NCBI GenBank assembly: GCA_023132075.1
Contig: JAGLYT010000045.1
Span: 1 to 9,082, forward strand
Direction of reading: 5' to 3'
DNA from: JAGLHV01 sp023132075 [NCBI: bacterium]
GTDB taxonomy: Bacteria; CBDUZB01; JAGLHV01
DNA: 9,082 bases
The position numbers and the translations under genes were made by a program. Every line of letters begins with the position of its first letter. Position 1 is the stretch's first letter. The notes beneath the pieces were generated by a model. That model did no database searches. It had not been told where the DNA came from and worked only from the letters and a program-made list of their open reading frames with translations. Positions 1 to 8,716 of this stretch are shown piece by piece.

Positions 1-5
1 CAGGC

Positions 6-47
6 AAATTCAAAATTCTAAATCCTAAATTCAAAATTCAAAACAAA
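6..47. repeat. Heptamer array (consensus AAATTCW), downstream of the four-helix-bundle gene
   Basis: Six consecutive 7-base units can be read directly: AAATTCA, AAATTCT, AAATCCT, AAATTCA, AAATTCA and a decayed AAACAAA. The ATTC/ATCC core recurs at 8, 15, 22, 29 and 36, so the period is exactly seven. The array may continue beyond the left edge of the window. It lies 19 bases beyond the stop codon of the neighbouring four-helix-bundle gene. A weaker array of the same period and orientation lies upstream of that gene. Confidence 0.8.
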
Positions 48-66
48 AAACTTAAATAGCTAAACC

Positions 67-426
67 TTATTTTGACTTTTCTAATATAGAACCAAAAATT
101 TTCATAAGTTCCGTAGATTCTTGCACTAAATATTTTTTTTCACTAACATAATCCTGTTTAGGTTCAGTAAGTCTTATCCAATATCTACTTTCCTTTGACT
201 CTTTTCTTGAGATTTTTATGCGCATTACAAAATCTTTTTTACTTAATGACTCATTCGCCTCTATATAATTCGCACCTACTGAACCGGCTGCTCTAATTAG
301 TTGTTTCCCAACTTCAATATGTGATATTGTTTTAAATAAATTATTTATATAAGTAATTACTCTTTTGGTAAAGTTAAAACATCTTTCTTCTAGATCATAA
401 CATTGTGAATTTTGCATTCTATTCAT
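67..426 (-). CDS. Four-helix bundle protein (S23 / 23S rRNA intervening-sequence protein family)
   Basis: This 119-residue all-helical protein matches the small four-helix-bundle family first seen inside 23S rRNA intervening sequences, and the length is normal for that family. The family signature is visible as QLIRAAGSVGANYIEANES at residues 42-60 and as KISRKESKESRYWIRL at 71-86, the usual Ala/Ser-rich helix followed by the E-S-xx-W-x-x-L helix. There is no signal peptide or membrane segment, so it should be cytosolic. Relatives form oligomeric, basic, nucleic-acid-binding-like bundles (for example Avd of diversity-generating retroelements), but most have no proven function. The ATG at 426 has a GGAG 13 bases upstream, a long spacing; the second Met at residue 4 has no better site. 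No rRNA, reverse transcriptase or variable repeat is visible nearby. The gene is bracketed by heptamer arrays and looks like a free-standing cassette unrelated to the signalling genes upstream. Confidence 0.88.
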   Translation of the reverse strand: MNRMQNSQCYDLEERCFNFTKRVITYINNLFKTISHIEVGKQLIRAAGSVGANYIEANESLSKKDFVMRIKISRKESKESRYWIRLTEPKQDYVSEKKYLVQESTELMKIFGSILEKSK

Positions 427-479
427 TTAAATCTGTCTACTCCAGCATAGATAAATTAATAACATTAAAGCAACCCCAT

Positions 480-520
480 AAATGTAAATAATAAATACTA
501 AATCCGAATATCTAAAAAGA
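480..520. repeat. Decayed heptamer array upstream of the four-helix-bundle gene
   Basis: The units read AAATGT (6), AAATAAT, AAATACT, AAATCCG, AATATCT and AAAAAGA. The period is seven and the orientation on the plus strand is the same as that of the array at 6-47. The segment AAATACTAAATCC here is close to AAATTCTAAATCC there. It lies 53 bases upstream of the start codon of the four-helix-bundle gene. Confidence 0.6.
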
Positions 521-728: not shown

Positions 729-2234
729 TTATTTTATAATACTTATTTTTATTGTTTCTTTTTTGTTATCTGTTTTAACAAGGCATAAATATGTTCCATT
801 AGCCACCATATTACCGTCTTTATCCCGTCCGTCCCACTGAAAGGCACTATTAATTCCTGCCTGCGCCTCTACATCCCATTCCCTTACTAAATTTCCGGTG
901 AGAGTATAAATCTTTATTTTCGCCTTTCCTTCTCCGTTCATATAAAACTGAATAGTAGTTGTCCCCTGATGTGGGTCAAAGGGATTAGGATAATTTATTG
1001 AACGATAACCCTCATTTTCAGACTGGACTATAACAGTCTGTGTTCCATTAACATTATAGTTAATAGTGTCCGTAAGAATTACAGTATGATTATCGACAGT
1101 CCCAAAAGATATTCCGTTGGTAAAAAGTTTACTGAGTTCTCCTGCACTAAAAGTATAATTCTCCGGCAAAATCGCCTGACTATCCGTAGAAGTAAACTGT
1201 GCTGTCCCGGTGTAAATAAATTCATTCTGATAAGGTTCATATACATCTATTCTGATATCCGCTGATTTTTTTACCGGCATATTTTGCGGTAAGGAAAGAT
1301 TAAATTTAATCCCCGCATCTATATCGAAAGAATTACTGTCTTTTGAAAAAAATAGACTGTCAGTTACTTCTAATATTCTCCCTGTCTCTTTTTTGTATAA
1401 GACAACCGTTAATATTTTTTCTCCCCTGTCACTAAGACCCTGCCAGGATTCAGGCGGAGGATATGAAGGGTTGGTTCCGTCCGGAGCTGATGTTGGAGCA
1501 AAACCTAAGGCTCCGGTTATAGATATTGTACTGCCGGTATAATCTAAATCAAGATTGCCATCCCCATCTACCATCTGTATTTTTACCCCAAAGGGTTTGC
1601 CGGCTATTTGGTCAGGGATAGTATCAACAGTATAATCGGTTGCGGTAACAATTATGGTATCGACCCCTGATGAATTCAAAGGAAATATTGTTGTCGGATC
1701 AACAGTACAATTCGTTCCAACTAAAGTTATATTATCCTCACTGTTCACTTGAAAATCAATAGTATCAATATCCGTAACATTGGTTTTTAAATCGTAAGTA
1801 ATGTAAAAATAGCGAGTTGAATTTGCAGGAATAACTGTATTTACAGGAGTAGGATCAAAAATAACTATTGAAGGATTTCCCGAAATTGTTTGACTACTTA
1901 CTTGCAATTCACCTATACTATCTTGTGGGATTGTATTATTATCTCTCCAAAGATAAATTCTATCTACATCTCTAATGTTTACCGGTGTTCCTATTGAAGT
2001 TACTTGAATTTTATTCAATGCAGAATCGTTGAAAGTTGTTGAATTATTCACTGCCTTTAAATGTAATACTACCTGATCAGTAGTTCCCGGCAAAAGATTC
2101 TTATTACTCAAAGACATAGTAGTAAAAGTAACCGTATCGTCTCCGAAAGTTACTCCCACCCCCACGAGCAAAAAACAAAAAACAAAAAATATTATTCCTA
2201 ACACTTTTTGTTTGTCACTTGTTTTTTGTATCAT
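729..2234 (-). CDS. Secreted multi-domain beta-sandwich protein with C-terminal FlgD-type Ig domain
   Basis: The 501-residue protein starts with a classic signal peptide: basic MIQKTSDKQK, a hydrophobic core at about 11-28, and likely cleavage near residues 30-32 (TFG|DD). I chose the ATG at 2234 because AGGAGGAG lies 4 bases upstream. The upstream in-frame ATG (2273) and TTG (2288) lack ribosome sites and would bury the signal peptide. The mature region is Thr/Asn/Ser-rich and beta-predicted. Residues 199-330 carry an Ig-like module (IAGKPFGVKIQMVDGDGN) of a kind common in surface proteins, and 352-400 look like another (ILPENYTFSAGEL). Residues 414-501 match the FlgD Ig-like/type-IX-like C-terminal domain: NYPNPFDP, KIKIYTLTGNLVREW, WDGRDKDGN, NGTYLCLVKTD and a Lys-ending tail. 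Such tails either sort proteins to the outer surface or act as adhesive domains; the sequence cannot decide which. The ligand is unknown. It follows the second receiver gene by 72 bases and may be co-transcribed. Confidence 0.85.
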   Translation of the reverse strand: MIQKTSDKQKVLGIIFFVFCFLLVGVGVTFGDDTVTFTTMSLSNKNLLPGTTDQVVLHLKAVNNSTTFNDSALNKIQVTSIGTPVNIRDVDRIYLWRDNNTIPQDSIGELQVSSQTISGNPSIVIFDPTPVNTVIPANSTRYFYITYDLKTNVTDIDTIDFQVNSEDNITLVGTNCTVDPTTIFPLNSSGVDTIIVTATDYTVDTIPDQIAGKPFGVKIQMVDGDGNLDLDYTGSTISITGALGFAPTSAPDGTNPSYPPPESWQGLSDRGEKILTVVLYKKETGRILEVTDSLFFSKDSNSFDIDAGIKFNLSLPQNMPVKKSADIRIDVYEPYQNEFIYTGTAQFTSTDSQAILPENYTFSAGELSKLFTNGISFGTVDNHTVILTDTINYNVNGTQTVIVQSENEGYRSINYPNPFDPHQGTTTIQFYMNGEGKAKIKIYTLTGNLVREWDVEAQAGINSAFQWDGRDKDGNMVANGTYLCLVKTDNKKETIKISIIK

Positions 2235-2236
2235 TG

Positions 2237-2244
2237 CTCCTCCT
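2237..2244 (-). promoter_or_regulatory. Ribosome binding site deciding the secreted-protein start
   Basis: The minus strand reads AGGAGGAG here, 2-4 bases before the ATG at 2234 depending on which GGAG pairs. It is the only strong site near any in-frame start, so it fixes the N-terminus and exposes the signal peptide. Confidence 0.75.
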
Positions 2245-2306
2245 TTTTGATGAATATTGATTATAGCAGACATAAAGAAAAAGTTCAATTGAAAAGATGA
2301 GCAAAA

Positions 2307-2672
2307 TCAATTATTTATCTTTTCCAACAATGTCCACAATTTCTTCATATCGATAGGTTTTTGGATAATTTTAAAATTAATATTTTTCAGTTTTTCTTTA
2401 TAAAAAGCGTCGTCGGCAAAAGCGGTAATCATTATAACCATTATATCGGGAACAATTTCCCTCAAAATCTTTAAAGTATCCACCCCATTCATCCCCGGCA
2501 TTTTAATATCTAAAAGAATAACATCAAATTGATGCGTCTTTACTGCGTCTATGGCTTGATACCCATTTTCGGCCCCAAGGGCATCATATCCTTTTAATTG
2601 AAGAATATCCAGCAGATTTTTACGCAATTTTTCATTATCATCTACTACTAATGCTTTAATTTTTTTAACCAA
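2307..2672 (-). CDS. Single-domain response regulator (receiver only)
   Basis: The 121-residue CheY-like receiver has no output domain. The acidic pocket is D11-D12, the phospho-acceptor is D55 (in VILLDIKMPGMNG), the switch Thr is T83 (MITA) and the conserved Lys is K105 (IIQKP). The whole set is intact, so it should accept phosphate and act by protein contact or as a relay. The start is TTG: there is no in-frame ATG before the acidic pocket, and GAGGAG lies 7 bases upstream (2680-2685). It lies 278 bases downstream of the giant sensor kinase gene, in the same direction, and is its most obvious partner along with the receiver at 8348-8716. The gap is occupied by an inverted-repeat element that may have been inserted into a once tighter operon. 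The role in the receiver family is certain; the pathway is unknown. Confidence 0.92.
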   Translation of the reverse strand: MVKKIKALVVDDNEKLRKNLLDILQLKGYDALGAENGYQAIDAVKTHQFDVILLDIKMPGMNGVDTLKILREIVPDIMVIMITAFADDAFYKEKLKNINFKIIQKPIDMKKLWTLLEKINN

Positions 2673-2679
2673 TTTTTTT

Positions 2680-2685
2680 CTCCTC
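2680..2685 (-). promoter_or_regulatory. Ribosome binding site supporting a TTG start
   Basis: The minus strand reads GAGGAG followed by seven A residues and then TTG. The strong site and ideal spacing support the non-ATG start of the second receiver gene. Confidence 0.75.
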
Positions 2686-2699
2686 TTCTAGTATAATTG

Positions 2700-2713
2700 C
2701 CTCATTTATGAGG
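2700..2713. repeat. Small palindrome CCTCAT-TT-ATGAGG
   Basis: A perfect 6-bp inverted repeat with a 2-base centre lies about 28 bases upstream of the TTG start of the second receiver, next to a TATACT hexamer (minus strand, 2690-2695). It could be an operator or a short hairpin. No good -35 box is placed for the TATACT, and a transcript from it would have only an ~11-base leader, so I do not call a promoter. Confidence 0.35.
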
Positions 2714-2768
2714 ATATATCCGATTATGTTTCTGCCTGATAAAGAGATTGTTGAAAAATACAAATTTT

Positions 2769-2821
2769 GTAATCGCAAACTTTCCTCCTTACAGACTGGC
2801 GGACAAGTAGTTTGCGTGAAA
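2769..2821 (-). repeat. Hairpin repeat, copy B
   Basis: The 8-bp stem CGCAAACT (2774-2781) / AGTTTGCG (2809-2816) is perfect. In the minus orientation the segment aligns with 614-667. Relative to copy A, one A-T pair in the stem is a G-C pair and another is a G.T wobble, so pairing is kept while the sequence drifts. The palindrome TACAAA-T-TTTGTA lies just beside it at 2759-2771. Confidence 0.75.
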
Positions 2822-2858
2822 ACATGGTAATATTTAGTAATAATCAGCAAAAAAATTC

Positions 2859-2877
2859 GCCGGCGGAAGCCGTCGGC
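2859..2877. repeat. GC-rich hairpin inside the inverted-repeat element
   Basis: GCCGGCGG (2859-2866) pairs with CCGTCGGC (2870-2877) across an AAG loop, with one wobble or mismatched pair. It is flanked by GGTAGCCG on the minus strand, a motif that also starts hairpin copy A. There is no adjoining T run of terminator type on the minus strand. Confidence 0.6.
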
Positions 2878-2950
2878 TACCGTTTTTCAACAATCTCTAA
2901 AGAGGGCAACTACAAACAACAAAAACACTAATTTTTTTCCTTGATAACCG

Positions 2951-5900
2951 TCATGCGAGGGGTAAGGTTATAATTACTTCTGTCCCCTGACCGACTTTGG
3001 ATTTAATGTTAATACTTCCTTTGTGCTTTTCAAAAATCATCTTACAAATGGAAAGGCCAAATCCAAATCCCCGCGTTTTAGTGGTAAACAAAGGTTGAAA
3101 TATTTTATCGACACTTTCAGGAGAAATACCCATCCCGGTATCCATAAACGATATTCTAACCTGTTTATCCCCCTGCAATGAAACATTTATCGTAAGCATT
3201 CCATCATGACCCATTGATTCCACCGCATTTTTAATGATATTATTGAAAGCCATATAAAGTTGTTCTTTATCGGCATTTACAAAAATTTCTCCTACCGGAA
3301 TATTTTTAGTCATCTTTACTTTATTTAATATTTCCAGGGAATCAATTACAGAATTAATCACTTCTATCAAATTTATCTTTTCTTTGTGAGGGTCTTTCAT
3401 TCCGGAAAGACTTAAAAGGCTGTCAATAATCAAGGCTGATTTTTTTACTTCAGTCTCTATAAATTCAATATGTTGGCGTAACCCCTCATCCGCTGTTCCC
3501 AATTTCATTTTAAGATAATAGGCTGAGGTATTAATAATACTAAGAGGATTACGAATCTCATGCGATATACTTCCTGCTAATTGTCCCAGTGTCGCTAATC
3601 GCTCTGCCACTAATAAATCTTCCTGGGTTTTACGCAATTGACGGGTTCGATGTTCCACCATCTCCTCTAAGTGTTCCCGGTGCCGTTGCAGCATAGATTC
3701 TGTCTGTTTCATCCGTTCTAACAATCGCGCATTTTCCAGGGAAATAGCCGCCTGATAAGTAAATAACTTAGTCAAATCTATTCTTTCTGTGGTAAATACC
3801 GACTCAGCTAAACGATTTTCCAGATAAAAAATTCCCACTAATTTATTCTGTTTAACAATCTCCAGGCAAAGCACTGATTTAAGCTTCATTTCCTGAACTT
3901 CGGAATTATCCTTAAATGCCCCCTTCTCCAAAGCATTTTCCAGCAATACCATTTCTTTAGTCCGATATGCATAGCGAACAATAGCATGACATATCTCCCT
4001 GCAATCTTCAAACCTTTTGTTTACCGTCCGCACAACATCTTTCTCGGTAATATGGCTCTCGGCACGAATAATTAAATCACCGTTTTCTTCCATAATTAAA
4101 TATCCATGCTGAGCACCGGAACTTTCCAGAACGACATTCATAATCTTATGCAAAATAACATCTTCCCCCGTCTCCGCGGGAATAACCAGACAGGATTTCA
4201 TCAGGTAGTTTACATCAATATTGGGAAGCACCGATTCCGTAGCCAAAGCAGGGGATAGAACAACCGGCACTTCTTTTTCAAAATATTCCGAATATTTATT
4301 CCTCAAATATATTTCTTTTTGTTCTGCATGGCATTTTTTATACAAAAGAACTGCCTCTCTCATAAAAACACCCTTCAATCCTTCATAACGAGGTTTTGCT
4401 CTTGGATAGTCTTCTTCAGGAGTACAAATCCACCATCTATCACAATGCGTCCTTTTCTCCCGGCATTCTTCATATCTGGGACAAATTTTAGCAAAATCAG
4501 AAAGATCGACAATAAATTCCCCCATACACTCATTGAGATATCCTTCTAAAAATGTATAGCGGTATTGACATGCCATACTGATCGCATCAAAATACAGATT
4601 TCTGGCTTCTCTTAAGTCTCCTATCACCCGCTCTTTTTCCGCATAAAGGAAAACAAGATAAGGTTTTAATAACGGCCCCAAATGAGCCCATATTTCAATT
4701 TCCTTTATCAGCGGCTGAATGTATGCTTTTAATTCTTCTTTTTCCTTATATTTAATTCCACATTCATGCAATCGCAAAGCATTAAGCACTAAAAAAACAT
4801 GCCATTGCCTCTTTAATACATTATCGGTCAAGCCGGTTAAATAATGTTTGACTTTTTGTAAATACTCTTCAGCTTTTTCATATTCTCCGAAGTAATAACA
4901 GGAAAGAGCCATATGCACATAATAACTCCCTACCGAAGCAACATGATTTTCTTTTTCCCATTGTTTTAATTTTTCCTCCATTGAAATAGGCATATAATCT
5001 TTTTTCATTGGTTCTATCCATGAAGCCTGCATTGCCTCTGCCAGATGAACGGAAAAATATAAATGATATTTATTAGAAAACTCCAGGCATTCCCGGGCAT
5101 ATTCCTGAATTTTTAGAAAATCGACACCCTGAAGCTGTAAGTTCCACATTAACGGACCATAAGAAAGTCCTGCATTATAAAGGTCACCCGAATTTTTACC
5201 ACACTGAATAGACTTTAGGCAATACTCAACTATATCTTCGGGATGACTCCGGGAATGCATATTACACCAGACTATCCCGTTCATTCCCCGGGTAGCACCA
5301 AAAGTATTGGGATATTTTTCGCATAAATTACGGGCAAGATCTTCGTATTTAAAAGCTTCTTCAAACTCACCTTTTTCGGCTAAATAAAGGCCCATAATAG
5401 AAAAGGAATAAATTACCGACTCATCCATTATTCCGGTCAAACATTGCAGAGTTGACTGCACCGCAGAAAGATACAACTGAGGAACAAACCCCGACATATA
5501 CAAATCCGGAATGAGTTCACTATAAAAAGATAATTCAATTTTTCCCTTTCGATCTTTAGTGAAAGGCATATTGAGAATTGTATTCCAAATATCAATCTCT
5601 TTGAATTCTATCTCTTTCATCTGCTGTTCTCTTTTTTGCTCTGCTTCTTCGGAATTGACCGGTATTGATTTATTAAAATAAGCTAAACCGCGATTGGCCG
5701 TTTCGATGGCTTTAATAAAATCCCCAATTGAAGAAAGAGAGGTAGTCTGTTCTGCCAAACATTCTGCTTTATCCATATCCGTCTTGGCATTATCCAATAA
5801 TTGATTAAGCAATTTCTCTGAATCATCATAATTGCCGCACATCAATTCCGTCTTTGCTGCTTTTTGATAAATCTTAAAGGTTTCTTCGTAGTGAGTTGCC

Positions 5901-8224
5901 CAACAGTCATCAGGAAGGATTTCTCTGGCCAACTTAAAATACTCATTAGCTGCCTTTGCCGCTAAGGCAGCTAAAGCTTTATTTCCCGCTTGATAATTTA
6001 TCGTTGACAAGCAATAAGCATTTTTACTATCCAATTCTTTTGGGCGTCCCATATTTAGATGGTTTGCTATGGAAAAAAGATTATCCAGCTTTTCCAAATC
6101 CGTACCTTCAGCAATACCCGATAATAAATGATTTCCTACATTCCAATGTATCTGTCTCCTTTTTTCTCTGTCAATTTTACTTAAAACAGCTTCTTGCACC
6201 CGGTCATGAACGAACTGTAAATCATTTTTATTCTCCATTAAAAGGCCCCGGGCTAAAGCGGGTTTTAAAATCTCAAAAATATTTCCCAATGTTATTTCCT
6301 TAACCATCGAAACATCGGTAGGCGAAAAAAGATTCCCCATACAGGCACAATATTCGAGTAAGTCTTTAGTTAACAAAGGCAATTTTTGCATTTTAGCACT
6401 AAAAAGAGCCACTACCGTAGAGGGCATATTTGTTTCCCGTATTTTATTGAAATCCCATTGCCAATGCTTTTTTTCGTCCAAAAAAATCAACCTTTCATTA
6501 TGGAGATAAGATAAAATTTCATTGACAAATAACGGGTTTCCTTCTGAAAGGTCAGTAATAAAAATAGATAATTCTTCATTTTGGGAAAGAGGCGAATCAA
6601 GAATATAAGCCACCATCTCATGACAATATTTATGTTCCAATGGGCCTAATCTAATTTGTTTAATCGGCTGTTTATTTTCCTTAACTTTTTGTATCAGCCG
6701 TATTAACGAATGGCCGGAATCTACTTCATTGTGACGATAAGCTCCAATGAAAAAAAGATAGTTGTAATGTTCATACTTGGTAAAAGCACTCTCCAAAAAA
6801 TCGAAAGTGGCTGTATCACCCCACTGAAGGTCATCGATGAATAAAATAAGAGGATTTTCTTCGCTAGCCAAACAACCTAAACATTTACCAAAAAGATCAT
6901 TGAACCGATTCCTTGATTCCACCGGAGGAAGTGATTTAACCTCCGGCTGATGACCAATCAGTATTTCTAACTCAGGAATAACATGTGTTATAATTTTAGC
7001 ATTTACCCCTAAAACTTCGGTTATTTTCTTTTTCCATATTTTAACCCTTTGATCCCTTTCGGTCAACAATGTACGAACTAAATTACGTAAAGCCTGAATA
7101 ATTGCACTATAAGGAACATTTTTTTGGTAAAGGTCGAATTTTCCGGAAGTAAAATACCCTCTTTTTTCAATAATCGGTTTCTGCAGTTCCTGAATCAGCC
7201 GGGTTTTCCCGATACCCGGCAGACCGGAAATAAATAACGAACGGAAAAAACCTTTACTTACATCTTCGTATTCATTTAAAATTATTTTTACCTCATCTCT
7301 CCGGCCTACCATTTTTGAAACAAAGGTAATTCGTCGAGTGGAAGCATCACTACCCAAAGAAAATTCAGCAATAATTCCTTTATCCAGATATTCGTCACGA
7401 CAATGTATAATATCCGTAAGCAGTACATTAGCATTTTGATACCGCTTTTCCGGCTGTTTTAAAATCAATTTAGCTGCAATCCTACTTATCATTTGCGGAA
7501 TTTCAGGATTTAATTCGCTAAGATAGGCGGCTTGTTCTGCCAGATGAGAATGGATCAATTCCAGGGGATCAAGGGAAAAAAAAGGAAGTTTACCGGTCAA
7601 TAATTCATAAAAAATAATTCCTAAAGAATACAGATCGGAAGAAAATCCCACGTGATGACTTATCCGGCCGGTTTGTTCCGGAGAGGTATAAGCCAAAGTC
7701 CCCTCAACAAATGACCGGTCATAAATAAAATGACTTATTTCCCTAACATCTATAGAAGATATAAAATCAATTAATCGGATATCCAATGTCCGGGGGTTGA
7801 TTAATATATTATGCGGTTTAACGCCCCCATAAATAATACCCGCTTCATGAATTTTATTTAATGCCTGAATCAAAGGGCAACTTATCGTAAAAAAATCTTT
7901 TAAAGAAACTTTATCCTGAGTTAGAGCCCATTCATTAAGCGGAATACCATCGAAATATTCCCTGACGATAAAGGGAATATCTTTCTGGACTTCGAAAGAC
8001 AAAGGCTTCATTAGTACGGGATCTTTTAAAACTTTTAATCGTTCAATTTTTTGATGGAAATGTATTTTTCTATGTTCGGGAAGATAACTAACTTTTAAAA
8101 TTTTTAAAACTAACGGTTTTTTGGGATCTTTTTTACTGAAAACTTTATAAATAATCGATTGGGTGTCTTCCCCAAGTTTCTTAACAACTTCATAATTAGA
8201 AATCAAGATTCCCTTTTCGTTCAT
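2951..8224 (-). CDS. Giant cytosolic sensor: pseudokinase - AAA/STAND ATPase - TPR-like repeats - GAF - histidine kinase
   Basis: This 1757-residue protein has no signal peptide or membrane segment. Order: kinase-like fold, about 11-275; AAA_16-type ATPase, about 300-560 (Walker A GLPGIGKT 334-341, Walker B LILFIDDLQW 459-468, R497); helical linker to about 775; alpha-helical TPR-like repeats, about 775-1320; GAF, about 1338-1497; coiled coil, about 1498-1540; HisKA with phospho-acceptor H1555 (SHEIRNP); HATPase_c with N-box N1666, G1 box DTGMGI 1695-1700 and GFGFGLSI 1719-1726. The histidine kinase has all hallmark residues. The architecture matches the family annotated as trifunctional Ser/Thr kinase/ATP-binding/sensor histidine kinase. 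The kinase part is degenerate: YGG (132-134) replaces H-R/K-D, and DFI replaces DFG at 153-155, although GTLAYTSPEQTGR is kept. A CX5CX6CX5C cluster lies at 1248-1267. The ATG at 8224 has AGGAGA 10 bases upstream. It is flanked by two stand-alone receivers, its likely phosphotransfer partners. The ligand is unknown. Confidence 0.93.
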   Translation of the reverse strand: MNEKGILISNYEVVKKLGEDTQSIIYKVFSKKDPKKPLVLKILKVSYLPEHRKIHFHQKIERLKVLKDPVLMKPLSFEVQKDIPFIVREYFDGIPLNEWALTQDKVSLKDFFTISCPLIQALNKIHEAGIIYGGVKPHNILINPRTLDIRLIDFISSIDVREISHFIYDRSFVEGTLAYTSPEQTGRISHHVGFSSDLYSLGIIFYELLTGKLPFFSLDPLELIHSHLAEQAAYLSELNPEIPQMISRIAAKLILKQPEKRYQNANVLLTDIIHCRDEYLDKGIIAEFSLGSDASTRRITFVSKMVGRRDEVKIILNEYEDVSKGFFRSLFISGLPGIGKTRLIQELQKPIIEKRGYFTSGKFDLYQKNVPYSAIIQALRNLVRTLLTERDQRVKIWKKKITEVLGVNAKIITHVIPELEILIGHQPEVKSLPPVESRNRFNDLFGKCLGCLASEENPLILFIDDLQWGDTATFDFLESAFTKYEHYNYLFFIGAYRHNEVDSGHSLIRLIQKVKENKQPIKQIRLGPLEHKYCHEMVAYILDSPLSQNEELSIFITDLSEGNPLFVNEILSYLHNERLIFLDEKKHWQWDFNKIRETNMPSTVVALFSAKMQKLPLLTKDLLEYCACMGNLFSPTDVSMVKEITLGNIFEILKPALARGLLMENKNDLQFVHDRVQEAVLSKIDREKRRQIHWNVGNHLLSGIAEGTDLEKLDNLFSIANHLNMGRPKELDSKNAYCLSTINYQAGNKALAALAAKAANEYFKLAREILPDDCWATHYEETFKIYQKAAKTELMCGNYDDSEKLLNQLLDNAKTDMDKAECLAEQTTSLSSIGDFIKAIETANRGLAYFNKSIPVNSEEAEQKREQQMKEIEFKEIDIWNTILNMPFTKDRKGKIELSFYSELIPDLYMSGFVPQLYLSAVQSTLQCLTGIMDESVIYSFSIMGLYLAEKGEFEEAFKYEDLARNLCEKYPNTFGATRGMNGIVWCNMHSRSHPEDIVEYCLKSIQCGKNSGDLYNAGLSYGPLMWNLQLQGVDFLKIQEYARECLEFSNKYHLYFSVHLAEAMQASWIEPMKKDYMPISMEEKLKQWEKENHVASVGSYYVHMALSCYYFGEYEKAEEYLQKVKHYLTGLTDNVLKRQWHVFLVLNALRLHECGIKYKEKEELKAYIQPLIKEIEIWAHLGPLLKPYLVFLYAEKERVIGDLREARNLYFDAISMACQYRYTFLEGYLNECMGEFIVDLSDFAKICPRYEECREKRTHCDRWWICTPEEDYPRAKPRYEGLKGVFMREAVLLYKKCHAEQKEIYLRNKYSEYFEKEVPVVLSPALATESVLPNIDVNYLMKSCLVIPAETGEDVILHKIMNVVLESSGAQHGYLIMEENGDLIIRAESHITEKDVVRTVNKRFEDCREICHAIVRYAYRTKEMVLLENALEKGAFKDNSEVQEMKLKSVLCLEIVKQNKLVGIFYLENRLAESVFTTERIDLTKLFTYQAAISLENARLLERMKQTESMLQRHREHLEEMVEHRTRQLRKTQEDLLVAERLATLGQLAGSISHEIRNPLSIINTSAYYLKMKLGTADEGLRQHIEFIETEVKKSALIIDSLLSLSGMKDPHKEKINLIEVINSVIDSLEILNKVKMTKNIPVGEIFVNADKEQLYMAFNNIIKNAVESMGHDGMLTINVSLQGDKQVRISFMDTGMGISPESVDKIFQPLFTTKTRGFGFGLSICKMIFEKHKGSINIKSKVGQGTEVIITLPLA

Positions 8225-8234
8225 TATCCCAATC

Positions 8235-8240
8235 TCTCCT
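8235..8240 (-). promoter_or_regulatory. Ribosome binding site of the giant sensor gene
   Basis: The minus strand reads AGGAGA, 10 bases before the ATG at 8224, following an A-rich run. It supports that start. Confidence 0.7.
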
Positions 8241-8260
8241 TTTTTTTAAATTGACCTCAA

Positions 8261-8288
8261 ATTATCTATTATTACTTCAATCTGTAAA
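8261..8288 (-). promoter_or_regulatory. Candidate sigma70-type promoter for the giant sensor gene
   Basis: On the minus strand TTTACA (8283-8288) and GATAAT (8261-8266) each match consensus at 5 of 6 positions and are spaced 16 bases apart, about 37 bases before the start codon. In such AT-rich DNA chance matches are common, and the gene could equally be read through from the upstream receiver gene. Confidence 0.4.
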
Positions 8289-8317
8289 TTAATGTTTTAA
8301 TCTCTCTTTGGGTTTCA

Positions 8318-8341
8318 TTCCCCGCAGCAAGCTGCAGGGTA
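8318..8341. repeat. REP-like palindrome between the first receiver and the giant sensor
   Basis: CCCCGCAGC (8320-8328) pairs with GCTGCAGGG (8331-8339) with one C/A mismatch and a very short loop. It starts 8 bases past the stop codon of the receiver gene. The minus-strand sequence after it is GAATGAAACCC, not a T run, so a Rho-independent terminator is unlikely. It may act as an mRNA-stabilising or REP-type hairpin. Confidence 0.6.
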
Positions 8342-8347
8342 ATTCAT

Positions 8348-8716
8348 TTACATTTTTAGTGCCTTCCTAATTATTTCTTTCAGTCCATCCACATCAAATG
8401 GTTTTTGTACAAAAGCGAAAACACCTTCATTGATTGCCTTGTCCGAATTTTTTATAGTAACAACACCACTCAAAATAATTACCTTTGTTTCCTGATTTAT
8501 CCTTTTTATTTCCTTTAATAATTCCCATCCCGACCCATCAGAAAGCTTAATATCAATCAACGCCAAATGATAAATATTTTCCGCTGCTTCTTCTTTTGCC
8601 CGGGCAATAGTTTCAACACACATTATTTTATATCCTTCATCTTCTAATATCGTTCCCAAAATTTCACTGCTTCTTTTATCATCGTCAACAATAAGAATAT
8701 TGATCTTTTTTTCCAT
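8348..8716 (-). CDS. Single-domain response regulator (receiver only)
   Basis: The 122-residue CheY-like receiver has an acidic cluster D11-D13, phospho-acceptor D55 (LALIDIKLSDGSG), switch Ser S83 (ILSG) and conserved Lys K105 (FVQKPFDVDGL). All catalytic positions are present and fall at the same residue numbers as in the other receiver, but the sequences differ widely (for example MPGMNG versus LSDGSG), so they are not a recent duplication. The start is the ATG at 8716, with AAGGA 8 bases upstream. A longer reading from TTG at 8734 would place that ribosome site inside the gene and is less likely. It lies 123 bases upstream of the giant sensor gene in the same direction and is likely part of the same phosphorelay. 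There is no DNA-binding or enzymatic output domain, so the effector is unknown. Confidence 0.92.
   Translation of the reverse strand: MEKKINILIVDDDKRSSEILGTILEDEGYKIMCVETIARAKEEAAENIYHLALIDIKLSDGSGWELLKEIKRINQETKVIILSGVVTIKNSDKAINEGVFAFVQKPFDVDGLKEIIRKALKM

Follow-up and report, generated by a model that had tools for sequence, protein, structure and literature searches.

Do the short arrays of seven-base period that stand on either side of a four-helix-bundle gene belong to that gene, as parts of one mobile unit, or do gene and arrays merely share a spacer? The question is raised by the stretch of DNA analysed here (the window, 9,082 nucleotides), which is the whole of contig C330 (1-9082) of assembly G000, a genome sequence of 1.87 Mb in 389 contigs that is 87% complete. 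The contig starts inside a dispersed heptamer repeat and carries the gene in question, which belongs to PF05635/TIGR02436, together with genes for an FlgD-Ig protein, two response regulators and a large kinase. The kinase (window 2951-8224) is a hybrid of 1757 amino acids with the order Ser/Thr kinase, AAA, GAF, histidine kinase, and it adjoins the single-domain response regulators; in the sister species (L270, G002:C71, about 7649-8484) the counterparts of window 2151-2705 and of window 2951 onward have a Y1 transposase gene between them.

Genes of this family outside rRNA are, we believe, quite probably often the cargo of small mobile cassettes with inverted arrays of 7-bp (sometimes 8-bp) units, the window holding a degraded copy of one. 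For the family at large, the enrichment of arrays beside the gene, their inversion, the dispersal of copies within a genome, their presence and absence at orthologous sites, and arms common to related proteins with differing outer flanks are matters of direct observation. The window itself looks, from its sequence, like a place where mostly loose repeat pieces surround a degraded cassette copy.

The four-helix gene and its flanking arrays

The window ORF scores 53.9 bits against PF05635 (cut-off 33.8; E 2.3e-14) and 67.8 bits against TIGR02436 (cut-off 24; E 8.4e-19), and a profile search of the genome returned this one PF05635 match in all. An AlphaFold2 model made with 18 relatives has four helices at a mean pLDDT of 91.4; Foldseek places it closest to the S23-family structures 2rld (E 1.3e-4) and 2gsc (E 0.01), with Avd chains (8ub7, 4dwl) among the weaker matches, so that the predicted fold is the four-helix bundle of 2rld and 2gsc. 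The gene does not lie inside a 23S rRNA gene, since an Rfam search of the window gave zero matches. The features around it are as follows.

1-5, plus strand: tail CAGGC, at the contig start, of the hairpin that is often inserted into the dispersed repeat, dividing it; the GGAGGACAGGC-AAATTC junction recurs in L033, L041 and L043
6-43, plus strand: R half of the dispersed heptamer repeat (AAATTCN five times, then AAAC), by its scores and its match to G002:C164
67-426, minus strand: four-helix-bundle gene, PF05635/TIGR02436, 119 amino acids, by ORF and profile matches
427-484, no strand: leader of 58 bp, lacking the 5' arm that immediately precedes the start codon in most relatives, by comparison with those relatives
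485-516, plus strand: L half from a second copy of the dispersed repeat, oriented like 6-43 and with no R half after it; 486-516 is identical to a solo repeat in G002:C164
535-555, no strand: small palindrome CCGCC...GGCGG of a kind dispersed in G000, by its sequence and similar hairpins at G000 loci

The array at 6-43 is real, as the sequence-only reading held: its period-7 score of 24.2 exceeds anything in 300 Markov-1 simulations of the window, whose highest value is 13.4, and Tandem Repeats Finder gives it a score of 55. The right array is weak as a tandem repeat, in that its period-7 score over 485-510 is below 12 (simulated 99th percentile 12.2) and Tandem Repeats Finder lists 485-503, with a score of 31, because the threshold had been lowered to 30. 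It is nonetheless nonrandom, for 31 nt of it (486-516) are the exact left half of a dispersed repeat of the sister genome, and L043 carries the same L-half variant. The two arrays do share one strand orientation, as had been read (direct score 15 against an inverted score of 7), while the gap between array and start codon, given earlier as 53 bases, is in fact 58 (427-484).

The order in the window is thus R, gene, L, with the contig beginning at R. The position of the 6-43 array fits, on sequence grounds, the inner part of a 3' arm by the stop codon. In place of inverted period-7 or period-8 arms the window copy shows half of one arm and, loose and in direct orientation, one further half, and folding of the RNA from 1-530 (z -0.4) gives no stem around the ORF, as far as this can be read from the contig start.

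A dispersed repeat in the genome and its sister species

At 13 loci of the window's genome the repeat has roughly the form L = (AAATNCN)3 AAAC followed by R = (AAATNCN)3-4 AAAC; it is often split between L and R by a hairpin insert, CCTCC...GGAGGACAGGC, and some copies do not have both halves. Its units stand at about 27 places in the genome, two of them on C330 and 25 elsewhere (at most one mismatch), a count made by eye from 75 rows in which places at contig ends are perhaps halves of one physical copy; a reversed-pattern control at the same mismatch limit found 0 places. The spacers at these loci carry several repeat families. The point between L and R is repeatedly occupied by a dispersed hairpin (CCGCC...GGCGG or CCTCC...GGAGG), for instance at L033, L041, L043, L044, L047 and L048, and a second set of period-7 words (AGTCCAT / AGTCGAC, AAAGACA) stands beside the AAATNCN repeat or takes up those spacers (L033, L041, L053, L288).

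The sister species provides the orthologous locus. Contig G002:C164 has the orthologous FlgD-Ig gene, 89% identical from window 652, and before it an unbroken L-R repeat with no gene between the halves; the L half equals window 486-516 (31/31) and the R half window 13-47 (35/35). These figures come from BLAST pieces, the global alignment being unreliable left of about window 600. Because the repeat is unbroken there without the gene, gene and repeat are separable at the window locus, and the window arrays do not bracket an intact cassette. For this locus the sequence-only reading meets one of the observations that it had itself named as contrary, namely arrays at an orthologous locus independent of the gene; the 25 of about 27 places that lie off the contig count against it as well. 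Elsewhere, the acd-etfB spacer has the repeat in G000 and lacks it in G002, at another spacer G000 shows a solo repeat and G002 a PF05635 gene belonging to a different clade, and genome G001 has arrays and no PF05635 match.

The window protein's nearest relatives present a second side of the matter. The ten best among 386 genomes (48-73% identity) all belong to other families, and at eight of these ten loci AAATNCN units lie within 150 bp of the gene (L130, L138, L272, L274-L277, L279; not at L273 and L278), against 2/139 other PF05635 genes in the two sets of loci described below. The window has these AAATNCN-type units of its nearest relatives at 6-43 and 485-510. The border of this group is blurred: four of eight further loci (L280-L287) carry such units as well, two of these being partial clade genes and two encoding proteins only 38-39% identical to the window's. 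Within the window clade (9 loci), all 36/36 pairs are more alike in their arms (12-40) than 300-500 bp out (7-12), and 8/9 loci reach the threshold for inverted arms, with L274 and L275 more strongly direct. Folding of the RNA of one relative, L138, gives z -2.4.

Inverted arms beside PF05635 genes

Two sets of loci around PF05635 genes were compared. Set 1 comprises 57 loci of 19 genomes, with several loci per genome and some near-identical copies; set 2 comprises 80 loci in named GTDB genomes whose record titles span many phyla, chosen as the best 80 among 560 relatives of a single query. No DNA match longer than 150 bp links the two. In both, period-7 arrays cluster in the 100 bp next to the gene: 31 arrays in set 1 (2.56/kb), falling to 0.34/kb at 100-200 bp and 0.04-0.09/kb beyond 200 bp, and 35 in set 2 (2.09/kb), against 0.05-0.13/kb beyond 100 bp. 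Period 8 gives a smaller signal in set 2 (13 arrays within 100 bp, 0.78/kb) that is real in several loci, and other periods are near zero beside the genes of both sets. An array within 100 bp at one or both ends is found at 25/82 PF05635 genes and 28/472 other genes of set 2. The scoring of flanks for period 7 that had been proposed as a check was the right one, and it shows enrichment in both sets.

The two flanks are commonly inverted with respect to each other. In set 2, 49/82 genes have inverted arms (score >=16), compared with 9/258 control genes (Fisher 7e-28) and 31/2000 mismatched flank pairs; in set 1 the figures are 24/56 genes and 10/268 controls. The remaining 33/82 and 32/56 genes stay below the threshold. 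Control genes come from simple ORF calling, those of set 2 being other short genes of the same loci, and genes with less than 100 bp of flank were dropped from the inverted-arm counts (82/85 kept in set 2). Direct similarity of the flanks is slightly raised in set 2 (7/82 vs 7/258, p 0.048), and in set 1 10/55 genes lie above the control 99th percentile; L117, L120, L115 and L296 are direct only, and L111, L274 and L275 more direct than inverted. The repeat unit varies from locus to locus in both sets. At L118, in G002, very long inverted arrays in which several heptamers follow one another stand on both sides of a PF05635 gene.

On the arm strand, read inward, G outnumbers C in 64/73 arms and is outnumbered by it in four; two of these four, L130 and L138, are from the window clade. 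Neighbours on both sides are co-oriented with the PF05635 gene in 89/127 cases, as against 50% of 869 control genes. The divergent gene pairs of genome G010 (L140-L143) were excluded from the inverted-arm, polarity and neighbour counts, and L145 and L147 from the polarity count as well. A search of viral contigs gave 4 pattern matches and zero relatives.

Mobility of gene and arms

Comparison of sites points to movement. Genome G056 has four copies that are 96-99% identical in unrelated flanks. On a Nostoc edaphicum plasmid a cassette lies between nrdB and nrdA, antisense to both, and a Calothrix plasmid whose flanks are 85-86% identical has none at this site; the Nostoc cassette measures about 0.5 kb, and its RNA folds with z -7.3. 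Picosynechococcus PCC 7003 carries a cassette between cas10 and cmr3 that is absent in PCC 7002, the long flanks being 89-93% identical and one 72-bp piece 83%. In Anabaena 90 a cassette lies between cas6 and cas4; a Dolichospermum plasmid has flanks 98-99.5% identical and a different small insert, hence no clean empty site. Of 30 plasmids found, 8 were fetched and 7 scored (L294 was unscored): six of the seven have inverted arms, and Pseudanabaena L296 has direct arrays.

If gene and arms are transferred as one unit, related proteins should share arms while their outer flanks differ, and this is what is found. An arm is shared between different genomes in 44/80 pairs at 60-75% protein identity, 74/1099 at 50-60% and 208/6445 below 50% (different-genome pairs only; with same-genome pairs included, 62.5% of 96 at 60-75% identity). 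At 60-75% identity, 12/80 pairs share the outer flank and 32/80 the arm alone, against 189/6445 pairs below 50% that share an arm with unrelated outer flanks. The dispersed near-identical copies, the plasmid sites with and without the cassette and these shared arms, sequence comparisons all, indicate that gene and arms are mobile. The proposal that a small helical protein with its own short-period arrays forms a spreading element thus gains from both sets and from 6/7 plasmid genes, once corrected on one point: the arrays are typically inverted and not direct.

About eight places in G010 have PF05635-like genes arranged in divergent pairs (e.g. L140-L143), and the DNA of four pairs is 75-85% alike; judged by this likeness, the pairs are a palindromic multi-copy element.

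A candidate mover

The cassettes read contain no recombinase gene, and in particular no Y1 gene. Three transposase and reverse-transcriptase families were tried across 60 genomes. Y1_Tnp is present in 23/23 genomes with a PF05635 match (22/23 of them above the family cut-off) vs 17/37 without (Fisher 4e-6), and the counts of Y1 and PF05635 correlate at 0.55, both figures ignoring kinship. Neither reverse transcriptase (6/23 vs 10/37 genomes) nor DDE_Tnp_1 (12/23 vs 19/37) shows an association. G000 itself has three Y1 matches, on C201, C344 and C352, none of them on C330. Since 0/20 Y1 genes read have a period-7 array within 150 bp, the Y1 link is a correlation only, and a direct link between Y1 genes and heptamer arrays was rejected on these 20. 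IS200/IS605 and REP elements are small, hairpin-ended and may be moved in trans. A Y1 transposase acting in trans is the leading candidate, to be taken as the best lead and not as a result.

Proposed mechanism and alternative explanations

We propose that the two arms pair, such that the inserted RNA would fold with the gene in its loop and be cut out or tolerated like the intervening sequences of 23S rRNA; if complementary arms let the RNA fold in this way, cassettes could settle in operon spacers. The arrays probably lengthen and shorten by slippage, and the complementarity of the arms is probably maintained by selection, or else by one arm being copied onto the other. A Y1 transposase (IS200/REP-type, HUH) may act in trans on the hairpin ends, and the four-helix protein, whose solved relatives are pentamers, may bind the arms. 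What the window holds would then be a degraded copy that has kept an inner half-arm by the stop codon and lost its 5' arm, with an L half from a different copy lying loose upstream, and the other array places in G000 would be solo arms.

The alternative that carries most weight is that the window arrays are an ordinary dispersed intergenic repeat of the lineage, the gene having come to stand beside them by chance, which we regard as doubtful but possible. The roughly 27 repeat places, 25 of them off C330, accord with it, as do the G002 ortholog with the repeat and without the gene, the arrays of G001 without a PF05635 match, and the acd-etfB spacer, whose repeat is itself present in one species and absent in another; chance adjacency would not lead one to expect AAATNCN at 8/10 nearest-relative loci and at 2/139 other PF05635 genes, nor the general enrichment of arrays at genes of this family. 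It is unlikely that heptamer-rich spacers are hot spots for many kinds of genes, PF05635 genes included, with arrays and gene not forming one unit. Such hot spots would explain the several repeat families per spacer and the one spacer where G000 has the solo repeat and G002 a PF05635 gene from another clade, and they sit poorly with two arms inverted around the gene, with related proteins that share arms in unrelated outer flanks, and with 0/20 Y1 genes having arrays.

Two further explanations assign the protein a different task. The arrays could be iteron-like binding or regulatory sites through which it regulates its own or neighbouring genes, and their concentration within 100 bp of the gene, often near the start and stop codons, is what such sites would show; we think this quite unlikely, because the arrays are on both sides and inverted, their sequence changes between clades, and regulation leaves the sites with and without a cassette unexplained. 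Least probable of all is that the protein is a reverse-transcriptase accessory like Avd and that the cassette moves by reverse transcription. Avd chains (8ub7, 4dwl) are indeed among the weaker fold matches and a hairpin RNA would be suited to copying, yet RVT_1 has no match in the multi-copy genomes G056 and G010 or in G000 (87% complete), and the 60 genomes show no association (6/23 vs 10/37). This model was rejected. Thus mobile cassettes with inverted arms, of which the window would hold a degraded copy, are the reading that we prefer.

Significance and comparison with known systems

'Four helix bundle protein' is an empty label on many genes, with at least 560 relatives in one pattern scan, and if many of these are mobile hairpin cassettes their annotation changes. 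The nature and spread of rRNA intervening sequences could then be tested in ordinary operons, and an origin may emerge for some of the heptamer repeats that are so far unexplained in bacterial genomes. The tests are simple, since the unit is small and cultivated cyanobacteria have it on their plasmids.

Dispersed, largely intergenic period-7 arrays are known from elsewhere, and those described here resemble them: TAACTGA repeats occur in Beggiatoaceae, cyanobacteria and Bacteroidetes, and heptanucleotide elements in Geobacter metallireducens, according to the available parts of the two accounts (PMC4679880, PMC2700814), in which a term search found no mention of S23 or a helix-bundle protein. 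Identity with the TAACTGA repeats was rejected, a (TAACTGA)2 run being found nowhere in the loci of sets 1 and 2. Two four-helix genes are among those unique to one Arthrospira strain, one of them best matched in Chloroflexi, and the accessible text mentions no heptamer arms alongside them (PMC8700078). As far as searches show, heptamer-armed four-helix genes have been described only for rRNA among the matches listed in open-licence literature.

The likeness to IS200/IS605 and REP elements with their Y1 transposase lies in the correlation between Y1 presence and the PF05635 gene; unlike IS200/IS605, the cassettes read are without a Y1 gene, and several of the printed Y1 flanks have other ends, GGGGACGTTG. 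The accessory protein Avd of diversity-generating retroelements shares the four-helix fold at the level of a weaker structure match, whereas the reverse transcriptase of those elements was not found in the multi-copy genomes G056 and G010, nor in G000.

The closest counterpart is the intervening sequence of 23S rRNA. In Coxiella, as the accessible portion of one paper has it, an S23p ORF lies within terminal inverted repeats that form a 28-bp stem, RNase III cuts within that stem, and tandem heptamers (GACAGAT) whose copy number varies among strains precede the start codon; the Xanthomonas S23p is a homopentamer (PMC4990558). A 23S motif search of sets 1 and 2 gave no match. On an Azospirillum lipoferum plasmid (L299) a gene of the family at 3001-3339 lies, with heptamer arms, inside a full LSU rRNA (1783-4981, Rfam), and this copy, by its position and its arms, links the cassettes to rRNA intervening sequences. 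A wider view, which we put forward tentatively and consider rather doubtful as a whole, is that TIGR02436 cassettes are widespread selfish hairpin transposons of bacteria, built of inverted heptamer arms and a pentameric four-helix protein, moved in trans by Y1 and tolerated in transcripts by virtue of a cleavable stem, with rRNA intervening sequences as their copies in 23S genes and at least some dispersed heptamer repeats as their solo arms. The cassettes have in common with the Coxiella intervening sequence, as far as the text at hand describes it, the protein family, an ORF within inverted repeats and the heptamers (PMC4990558). Unlike intervening sequences of 23S rRNA, they lie mostly in operon and intergenic spacers and, by record title, in many phyla; and unlike that of Coxiella, again as described in that portion, they have arrays of heptamers or octamers flanking the gene on either side, and solo arms are scattered through the genus of the window.
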